Below, piece by piece: positions 18,176 through 53,090 of a DNA stretch of 64,000 bases. This DNA is from Thermoplasma acidophilum DSM 1728 (lineage in GTDB: Archaea > Thermoplasmatota > Thermoplasmata > Thermoplasmatales > Thermoplasmataceae). The first letter of the stretch is position 1. Each line of letters begins with the position of its first letter. The notes below the pieces were generated by a model. The model saw only the letters and a list, made by a program, of their open reading frames with translations. It did no database searches and was not told the DNA's origin. Location of the stretch: positions 1,049,644 to 1,113,643 of the forward strand of contig NC_002578.1 of the NCBI RefSeq assembly GCF_000195915.1, read 5' to 3'. The translations under genes and the position numbers were made by a program.

Positions 18176-19210
18176 CTATGCCGGCGATCGTCTGTGCAGT
18201 GTATCCATCATGAGGCTTTCCACCAGGTCGCAGCTGGCATCCGTTTTAATTCCAGTGGGTGAGAACATCGTCCTTGACGCGGCATGGCCTGAAGATGACA
18301 GTGCATCTATAACCGATTCTATGTCAGGTAGGCTTGTGTGCCTCGCCCTTGCGATGTCCGTCAGGTCGCAGAAGAGCAACCGGTTTTCCTCCGGATTGAA
18401 GGCCTTGTGGCCTGCGGATGCAAGAACGGCCTCGGCGACTGCATTGTCCTGTAAATTTCCCTTCCATACTGGTCCCTCGTCCATATCTTGGTATATGCCA
18501 GATAGTAAGTTATGCTTGTTCACGTAGCCAAGATTCTGCATCATCCTTCCTGCCCCCTCAAAACCCTTCCTGACTCTTACAAAAACACGGTAATAGTGGC
18601 CATGCCATATCGAGATCAATGGATCTATGAACCGGCCGAGCGATGCAGCTCTCTTGGCCATATATCCTATCAGGAGCCTGATGCCCATCTCATGCCTGAA
18701 TGTATCATTTTTTATTAGTGCATCGTACCTTATGCGTGTCTTGTGGGGGACCGATCCTGTTAGTGCCGACTGGTCAGTTGCGGTAACTCCAAGAAAACCG
18801 TTGCGCTTTACACCCATAAGTGCAGCGTCAAGATATGGTACTGGAGAACCATACGGATCAACATCCACATATTCATAAGCGCCGTGCTGGAGCACGCATT
18901 CAAATGAATCGTTGATGACTGAAGCCTGTGATCCATTTCTTTCTACGTTATCCCTGATCAGGCGGTATGAATCTGGAGAAACCTCCGATATCGTCACCGC
19001 TGAATCCGTTTCCTTGGATATCCGGATGCCCCTTATGCCAGTACCGCCGAATCCATCCAGAACGTTCCTTATTCCCATCTTTTTTATGAATTCAATGGTT
19101 ATATCCCTATTTATCTTCTGGTCGGCATTGTAAAAACCCGTACCTCTCTTTCCAGGGCCATGGTAAACTTCTGGGACGAGTATTTCAGCTGAACCCTCCC
19201 TCACTATCAT
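18176..19210 (-). CDS. trm1: tRNA (guanine-26-N2) dimethyltransferase
   Basis: SAM-dependent enzyme methylating G26 at the hinge between D and anticodon arms of tRNA. The Rossmann fold is seen in RNVLDGFGGTGIRG, followed by EVSPDSYRLIRDN and the catalytic-type DVDPYGSPVPYLDAAL; GVTATDQSALTG is diagnostic of Trm1. The 344 residues are a little short of the archaeal norm (~380). Its start overlaps the NTPase gene by four bases, so it is translationally coupled in the leftward operon. Confidence 0.93.
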   Translation of the reverse strand: MIVREGSAEILVPEVYHGPGKRGTGFYNADQKINRDITIEFIKKMGIRNVLDGFGGTGIRGIRISKETDSAVTISEVSPDSYRLIRDNVERNGSQASVINDSFECVLQHGAYEYVDVDPYGSPVPYLDAALMGVKRNGFLGVTATDQSALTGSVPHKTRIRYDALIKNDTFRHEMGIRLLIGYMAKRAASLGRFIDPLISIWHGHYYRVFVRVRKGFEGAGRMMQNLGYVNKHNLLSGIYQDMDEGPVWKGNLQDNAVAEAVLASAGHKAFNPEENRLLFCDLTDIARARHTSLPDIESVIDALSSSGHAASRTMFSPTGIKTDASCDLVESLMMDTLHRRSPA

Positions 19211-19752
19211 TCCTCACCCTTGAGGACGTGCATGACCTTGAACGGGAGTATGTTCTTGTTTATCGGAGTTATGTCGAAAACCCTGACGCCTTCCAGGCTC
19301 TTTATCTCCTGTAATACTGGATTCCTGGATCTCTTGTGCAGCGTAACGATGAGGGGCTTGCCACATTTAAGCGTCTCTTCTATCTCTGCATGCACCTTTT
19401 TCGTTGTATTCTCTAGCTTACCTATCTCATCTATCACTATGACGTCTGCAGTCTCTCTGGCCTTCTGAAGGCTGGGGATGAGTATTTCCTCCAGTATCTT
19501 TGTGTCAACACCTAGCTTGTCTATCTTAACCCTGGAAACGAAGTTATCAAAACAGAATTGGGCCTTCCTCTTAGATTCTATATCCTCTATGGTGTAACCA
19601 GTCAGCTTACCATTGTTTGTTACCTTTGAAACCAGAACGCCCTGCACATTGAGATTATCATTTTTCAGCATGTCTATGATCTTCTGGAGAGCCTCTGATT
19701 TTATCGATCCAACGGGACCGGTGATCCCAATTTTTATTGCCAAAGGTATCAC
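19207..19752 (-). CDS. THEP1-type nucleoside triphosphatase with altered P-loop
   Basis: A 181-residue P-loop NTPase of the THEP1 family, which hydrolyses ATP, GTP and other NTPs; cellular role unknown. The Walker B block VIVIDEIGKLE is well preserved, as is the family's LHKRSRNPV and C-terminal region. The Walker A is unusual: GPVGSIKS replaces the normal GPPGVGKT, so the glycine before the invariant lysine is isoleucine. Activity may be reduced. It overlaps the upstream mptD and the downstream trm1 by four bases each. Confidence 0.85.
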   Translation of the reverse strand: MIPLAIKIGITGPVGSIKSEALQKIIDMLKNDNLNVQGVLVSKVTNNGKLTGYTIEDIESKRKAQFCFDNFVSRVKIDKLGVDTKILEEILIPSLQKARETADVIVIDEIGKLENTTKKVHAEIEETLKCGKPLIVTLHKRSRNPVLQEIKSLEGVRVFDITPINKNILPFKVMHVLKGEE

Positions 19753-20115
19753 TCCTCTATGTACATCAATGGGTAGTCCATCTCTGGAATATACTTCAAT
19801 CGGGCAACAATTACATTTCCATCATAATTTATCTTTATCCTTACATCCAGCATTTCCCCGCTGAGCGTGAGGTACTTGTAAACGCCGGGCTTCTTGTTGT
19901 TGACCGTTGGATCAATATGAACTTCTGCATCCTCCACAAAGGGCTGCACCATTATGCTTTCCCTTATGGCCTTCTCTATGTAATTTATATTTCCCTGGTT
20001 TATCGGTATGCCGACGTATATGATGATACACCGTTCCGAGTTTGATGCCAGCTTCGAAAACAGCTCTCTCCCTCGGAGTACATTTAAAATAGTGCGATGC
20101 TGGATCTTTCATCAT
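19749..20115 (-). pseudogene. mptD: Archaeal dihydroneopterin aldolase (MptD family), interrupted by a one-base frameshift
   Basis: The 5' frame gives an N-terminal half with RERAVFEAGIKLG, and the next frame gives VGIPINQGNINYIEKAI, QPFVED, then YLTLSGEMLDV and a C-terminal YPLMYIEE. Joined, they reproduce a complete ~121-residue MptD-family protein, the archaeal aldolase that cleaves dihydroneopterin for pterin cofactor synthesis. The total of 367 bases equals 122 codons plus one, so a single extra base is enough. The switch lies within about 20018-20028, in TATCATCATATACG on the coding strand. It may be a true lesion, a sequencing error or programmed slippage. First gene of the leftward lipid/tRNA operon. 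Confidence 0.75.
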
Positions 20116-20133
20116 GGGGTAATAACATAATTA

Positions 20134-20143
20134 TAGATAAATA
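20134..20143 (-). promoter_or_regulatory. TATA box of the mptD-to-GGGPS operon
   Basis: On the coding strand ATTTATCTAT lies about 24 bases upstream of the mptD ATG (20115), suggesting a leaderless start for the whole five-gene transcript. Confidence 0.4.
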
Positions 20144-20214
20144 ATAGGTATGACATGAAGTATTAATGTCATATTTCCGCGTGATGAGGCTTTCTTCAAA
20201 TCGAAGTTTAGTTC

Positions 20215-51779: not shown

Positions 51780-52700
51780 TTTTTATCGGTCTCAGTGTCT
51801 CCCGTAGTGCTACGAATTTTATGTCAACTTCTATAACAAGAGAAGTGAATTTCTCCCACAAGGAGTTATAACTTTTGTGAACGTAGAGGATGAATAAACA
51901 TGAATGGCATGGATAAGATATAATAATGGTTAGTGAGAAGAACTGTGAGGTAATATTTGGAGAGATTAATGAGCATGTGCATAGATTTTTCCATGGACGA
52001 GAGCAGTGGATCTCTGGCCGGAAAAAAGATTGGATTCGAGGAGATCGAAGATCCCACAACACCCAGATATATGGATCTTTAATTGTTAAGAGGTTTAAAG
52101 AAGCTTTACTTCATCTATAGGGCTATAGCAAATCAGGATACCGCAAGAGGATCGAATCGCTCTGAAAGTGCCAAATACTGGATTCTGTTGCATTGTAAGC
52201 AATTCTGTTTACGTTTATGATCGAAATTAGATCGCCTTCCGAACGATACTATGATAACAACCGAGGGAAGAAGGTCGTTAACAATAGAGCGCTCTAATAA
52301 TTGAAGCAGATAAATACGGTCAAAGTTGAACATTTTCTCTAGTTGTTCATTTTTTCAAAGAGACCATAGCTTCTGTTCGACGTAGCTTATCAGCCAGCTT
52401 GCATTGTCTAGGATTATAATCATGTTCTTCCTTTCCAGCATTACCATTTACCTCTCTTTTCGTTAATTTTTAACCTTTATTTTTCAAAACAAGACTGAAA
52501 ATTAGATATGGCTCGGAATCAATGAAGCAGAATATTAGCCAGTATTTCAGAGGGTCAGCAAGCAAGGTAAGGGAACAGGACGAACAAAATAAAAACCTCT
52601 TCTCAGATTTTGAACCGAAAATAGCAGAAGCCCCAACAAAAGACTTGTTACACGATTAAAATGAGCCGCCTTCCAGTGATACCTTACAATAGAAGTAGCA
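51780..52700. other. Gene-poor, decayed DNA
   Basis: Only short, interrupted frames. One of 45 codons (52522-52659, MKQNISQYFRG start) has no recognised family. A minus-strand fragment near 52430-52365 reads MIIILDNASW, faintly like a DDE transposase core, but is too short to call. No tRNA, CRISPR or intact gene is seen. Confidence 0.4.
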
Positions 52701-53090
52701 AGAAAGCTCCGATCTTTAGAGAGGAGATGAATTGTAAAATCATGTATTCATGGCTGTAATATATCAGGTTGAGTAAATATAAAGCAAAGATAGATGGCAT
52801 CCCCCTAACCTGTGTTGATCCTAAAAACACATTGAAAGAGTGTTCTAGGTGTGGAAGCATAGGTATTAGGGAAGATAAATCATTTAAGTGCCCGAAATGC
52901 GGACACGTTGACCACGCTGACGCCAACGCTTCGTTCAATATAGCGTTGCGTCCTCTTTAAAGGAAAGCGCAGGTCGATTGCATACAGACAGAGATGTATG
53001 CAAAGGGAGCACTGATACCCCTAAAGAGGCAACTCCAAGAACGATGGAGACCTTAGAACCTCCGAAGCCTTAGCGAGGGGAGTATGTCAG
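52695..53090 (+). mobile_element. Internally deleted IS605/TnpB element (copy F) with left end, zinc-ribbon remnant and right end
   Basis: A left-end hairpin CTCC-GA-TCT/TTAG/AGA-GGAG (52709-52727) resembles copies A and B. It is followed by the C-terminal zinc-ribbon part of a TnpB (52769-52960): CSRCGSIG, then [20 protein letters not shown], which is diagnostic, ending in a stop after LRPL. About 100 bases later comes a right-end hairpin, GAAGCCTTAGC, then GAGGGGAGTATGTCA (53059-53089). The RuvC nuclease part is missing, so it cannot act alone. The stretch after the stop would correspond to the omega-RNA. Confidence 0.75.
52769..52960 (+). pseudogene. tnpB: TnpB zinc-ribbon fragment
   Basis: Sixty-three residues with CSRCG and CPKCG cysteine pairs and the [12 protein letters not shown] block that closes IS605-family TnpB. 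The N-terminal two thirds, including the first RuvC acidic residues, are gone; only the last catalytic-type aspartate in DANASFN remains. Confidence 0.85.

Follow-up and report, generated by a model that had tools for sequence, protein, structure and literature searches.

Archaeal MptD converts 7,8-dihydroneopterin to 6-hydroxymethyl-7,8-dihydropterin. The family corresponds to PF04038 (DUF372) in Pfam, and its known structures include 2OGF, which is MJ0408, as well as 2I52 and 2IEC. NCBIfam holds no model matching MptD, and literature searches on MptD, COG2098, and MJ0408 and on known sequence errors in Thermoplasma acidophilum returned nothing usable. MJ1585, cited as a homologue in the original prediction for this locus, appears to be the wrong protein; in M. 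jannaschii, the DUF372/DHNA protein whose structure has been solved is MJ0408.

We analyzed a window of 64,000 nucleotides from T. acidophilum DSM 1728 (positions 1,049,644 to 1,113,643 of the single contig NC_002578.1, which is 1,564,906 bp long). The mptD gene found there resembles the archaeal family in its conserved blocks and differs from it in that the frame is interrupted by one base, here only. Comparison of the sequences suggests that the interruption is probably an error in the deposited sequence and not a biological feature.

mptD is read in two abutting frames

The original prediction held that two short frames would join into one MptD-family protein upon removal of a single base. 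Profile searches bear this out, with PF04038 matched in both halves of the gene and T20020 being the best base to remove. Residues 13 to 32 of the proximal ORF correspond to profile positions 1 to 20 (26.6 bits against a cutoff of 25), and the distal ORF corresponds to positions 44 to 108 (67.9 bits; E value, 1.3e-18). In a six-frame profile search the two pieces abutted: assembly positions 1069663-1069722 matched PF04038 positions 1 to 20, and 1069398-1069661 matched positions 21 to 108 of 108. The profile is covered over its full length by two abutting frames, each above the curated cutoff, and this match to the DHNA family is far beyond chance.

The most likely start of mptD is the second Met codon, at 20112 (MKDPASHYF), which is common to all congeners and gives a gene of 364 nt. 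Counted instead from 20115, the interval down to 19749 comprises 367 nt, or 122 codons plus 1, as had been calculated originally. With one base removed, the gene encodes a single 120-aa protein. Once joined, the two halves match the Pfam model over its whole extent, and the YHQ(Y/F)VG, VQPFV, and YPLMY blocks are all present. In this respect mptD is an ordinary family member, although it is read here in two frames and not in a single uninterrupted one. Annotation based on ORFs only would miss it, as anticipated. The features of the locus, together with three further genes discussed below, are listed in Table 1.

Table 1. Positions of the mptD features in the window and of other frame-broken genes in the assembly (prefix G000:C1)
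Feature	Position	Strand	Description
Extra base	20020..20020	-	T on minus strand, A on plus; in TATCATCA[T]ATACGTC; gap there versus all congeners
mptD with interrupted frame (PF04038/DUF372, archaeal dihydroneopterin aldolase)	19749..20112	-	121 codons (stop included) + 1 nt
Proximal ORF	19912..20115	-	67 aa; residues 1-32 are MptD, remainder out of frame up to the stop
Distal ORF	19749..19952	-	67 aa; begins at internal ATG (MVQPFV...)
Upstream AT-rich block	20115..20147	-	ATTATTTATCTATAATTATGTTATTAC; almost unchanged across the five Thermoplasma genomes
Downstream gene, NTPase_1 (THEP1-type)	19207..19743	-	PF03266, 173.5 bits
aCPSF1 (beta-CASP RNase/termination factor)	G000:C1:644431-646346	+	Broken at about residue 494, one base missing
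purD (TIGR00877)	G000:C1:626191-627481	-	One extra T
ABC-transporter ATPase	G000:C1:86337-87240	+	Two missing bases within 13 columns (12 apart), beside signature motif

Position of the extra base

We removed every base of mptD in turn and compared the products with the protein of the nearest relative, Thermoplasma MAG isolate FL (G005). Removal of T20020 (minus strand) gave the best identity, 114 of 120 residues, while neighboring removals gave 111 to 113. The motif YHQYVG returned only upon this removal; other removals placed Ile, Leu, or His at the position of the Gln. The relatives read TAT CAY CA-G TAY GTN GG and this sequence reads TAT CAT CAT ATA CGT CGG, such that CAG TAY stands where this genome has CAT ATA C. 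In agreement with the original claim that the conserved blocks carry no other lesion, the coding alignment with four congeners contained one gap only, of 1 base.

Each of the 28 additional family sequences whose motif was read has the Gln of YHQYVG (2 of 30 fell outside the search pattern). The same residue is present in the Thermoplasmataceae proteins that span the site and in three homologues of known structure, 2I52, MJ0408 (2OGF), and 2IEC. The larger block E-R-A-x-F-E-A-G-I-K-x-G-x-x-Y/F-H-Q-Y/F-V-G is intact only without T20020; as printed, it is broken at the Gln. With the Gln restored, its codon would be CAA, which is rare here (2.9 per 1000, versus 19.1 for CAG), and the other Thermoplasma genomes have CAG at this invariant position. 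Therefore, the true bases could differ from those left by a plain one-base deletion.

Relatives carry mptD in one frame

We compared the locus with four other Thermoplasma genomes: MAG isolate FL, MAG isolate KMA_Bin19 (G051), G039, and G024. The gene lies in one frame in all four, and also in the other members of the Thermoplasmataceae with loci spanning the site. Of 150 genomes sampled across the phylum, 76 had a match; mptD was split in two only in this genome, and the other 75 had it in one frame. None of the four congeners had the extra base. The uninterrupted genes of the other Thermoplasma genomes share with this one a promoter-like block, and the alignment continues into the same start of the downstream NTPase gene. 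Across the distal half of mptD, identity to the nearest relatives is 93%.

Other conserved genes of the assembly are broken likewise

To look for frame changes, we set about 864 kb of this assembly, roughly half of it, against a similar share (about half) of G024, which gave 11 candidates in the sampled part. Some of these were dropped as antisense or fused-ORF artifacts or as transposase-like or repeated hypothetical genes; one dropped candidate was an antisense frame fused to an apparent RNase P subunit. Four conserved genes were frame-broken in the sampled part: mptD, aCPSF1, purD, and an ABC ATPase gene. In each of the four congeners, the last three lie in a single frame. Like that of mptD, their breaks are single-base indels in genes that are otherwise clean. 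The ABC ATPase gene differs in having two missing bases, whereas mptD, aCPSF1, and purD have one lesion each.

In five-genome alignments, the missing base of aCPSF1 (about 1.9 kb aligned) and the extra T of purD (about 1.3 kb) were the only gaps. The G024 aCPSF1 protein matches TIGR03675 with 969 bits. Since aCPSF1 serves archaea as a conserved RNase and termination factor, living cells are improbable carriers of a real break in this gene. The lesions of purD, AAGA[T]ACGC, and mptD, ATCA[T]ATACG, are alike in that a T stands between two As, a likeness that with two cases is only suggestive.

The reverse comparison gave 10 raw candidates in G024, several of them antisense artifacts, and the numbers are comparable to those for this assembly. 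In G024, which is probably T. volcanium, apparent frame changes were seen at L075:4564-5239 and L083:6417-7999 relative to uninterrupted proteins of 226 aa and 526 aa here. Within the window, a TnpB-like transposase gene at 52574-53034 (plus strand) is apparently frame-broken relative to a G024 protein.

Sequence error or recent mutation

A sequence error is favored by the intact relatives, the single-base lesion, the lack of decay, and the other conserved genes broken in the same way. The T. acidophilum strain would then carry an intact and ordinary mptD gene for the archaeal 7,8-dihydroneopterin aldolase of the pterin pathway. On this reading, the T at 20020 would have arisen as a base-calling or assembly error and would be absent from the living strain, and the enzyme would be expected to work as in other archaea. 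Counting against this reading are the lack of a homopolymer at the site, homopolymers being where Sanger indels most often arise; the rarity of the restored codon CAA; and the chance that a strain on yeast extract could tolerate the loss of pterin or purine synthesis.

An artifact and a recent mutation were both among the origins offered by the original prediction. The former gains from the other genes broken alike and from the absence of decay, and the latter retains a minor share of the probability. A genuine, very recent one-base insertion would have inactivated mptD, with the cell drawing pterins or folate from its medium or relying on leaky frameshifting. We consider this unlikely, though it is the alternative that fares best. 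mptD carries no second lesion, as fits a very recent event; laboratory culture on yeast extract could relax selection; and the assembly contains real pseudogenes, few in number (e.g., of transposases).

The pattern of substitutions leaves little time for such an event. With T20020 removed, the gene's own branch shows 10 synonymous changes and 3 nonsynonymous ones, compared to 10 and 4 in the intact sister G005; pairwise values against this sister are 0.029 for dN and about 1.4 for dS. Neutral drift along the whole branch would lead to nonsynonymous changes on the order of 190. A rough Poisson bound, which supposes that the gene evolved neutrally once broken, limits the unconstrained part to no more than about 2% of the branch, and a real insertion must fall within this last part. 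Decay was seen in neither half of mptD, which has no lesion besides the 1-base one. The relaxed selection that would mark a pseudogene was not found, a result with which a very recent lesion is still compatible. Moreover, the insertion would be one among several equally fresh single-base breaks, including that of aCPSF1, which is unlikely to be dispensable, and it would affect a gene that is kept in every other Thermoplasma genome and in nearly all of the family.

A real base would mean that a pterin gene has been freshly lost or is recoded. If the breaks are errors, gene-content claims based on ORFs, such as the lack of dihydroneopterin aldolase in this archaeon, are wrong. Caution is called for with this early reference genome, in which at least four conserved genes, including aCPSF1, purD, and mptD, are read as broken.

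Recoding and a two-piece enzyme

Programmed +1 frameshifting or slippage at the 14-base TATCATCATATACG could also yield a full-length protein. The two frames overlap free of stops for about 195 nt, and 197 single-base removals leave the full-length frame open. We nevertheless regard such a mechanism as very improbable. All relatives have mptD in one frame, and hence there is no conserved shift site or slippery sequence; the sequence at the site differs in the congeners. No codon there is hungry, as ATA is among the most used (54.9 per 1000) and CAT, at 8.9 per 1000, is no rare codon either. An ordinary P-site +1 shift after CAT CAT would produce YHHYVG, with His for the invariant Gln, and the Gln comes back only if T20020 itself is skipped. 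Polymerase slippage is at odds with the lack of a homopolymer at the extra-base site. Together, these observations speak against the slippage site that had been proposed originally. We give almost no weight to a real base combined with efficient +1 recoding at a noncanonical site, which would have to skip exactly T20020 to restore the Gln, with aCPSF1 and purD recoded too.

A functional two-piece enzyme, in which both ORFs are translated separately and then assemble, could start its second piece at the ATG at 19952, but in the relatives that codon specifies an ordinary Met inside the protein, in MVQPFV, and since the distal frame, open upstream to about 20107, has no ATG, GTG, or TTG before 19952, the pieces together would be without about 20 residues (QYVGIPINQ...RESI), some of them invariant; we rejected this hardly credible arrangement because of the missing conserved residues.

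Pathway and gene neighborhood

The genome contains an MptA-type GTP cyclohydrolase gene (PF02649, 205 bits) and an MptE-like kinase gene (PF01973, 51.7 bits), both with an open frame, and no match to bacterial FolB (PF02152) was found in it. The MptD step should therefore still be needed. The AT-rich block upstream of mptD is likely the promoter (TATA element) of a leaderless transcript. Downstream, the NTPase ORF as called begins at GTG 19752 and overlaps the stop of mptD. From the alignment, however, its conserved start is probably TTG 19743 (ATG in G024). As this start follows directly after the mptD stop, mptD and the NTPase gene are probably co-transcribed.
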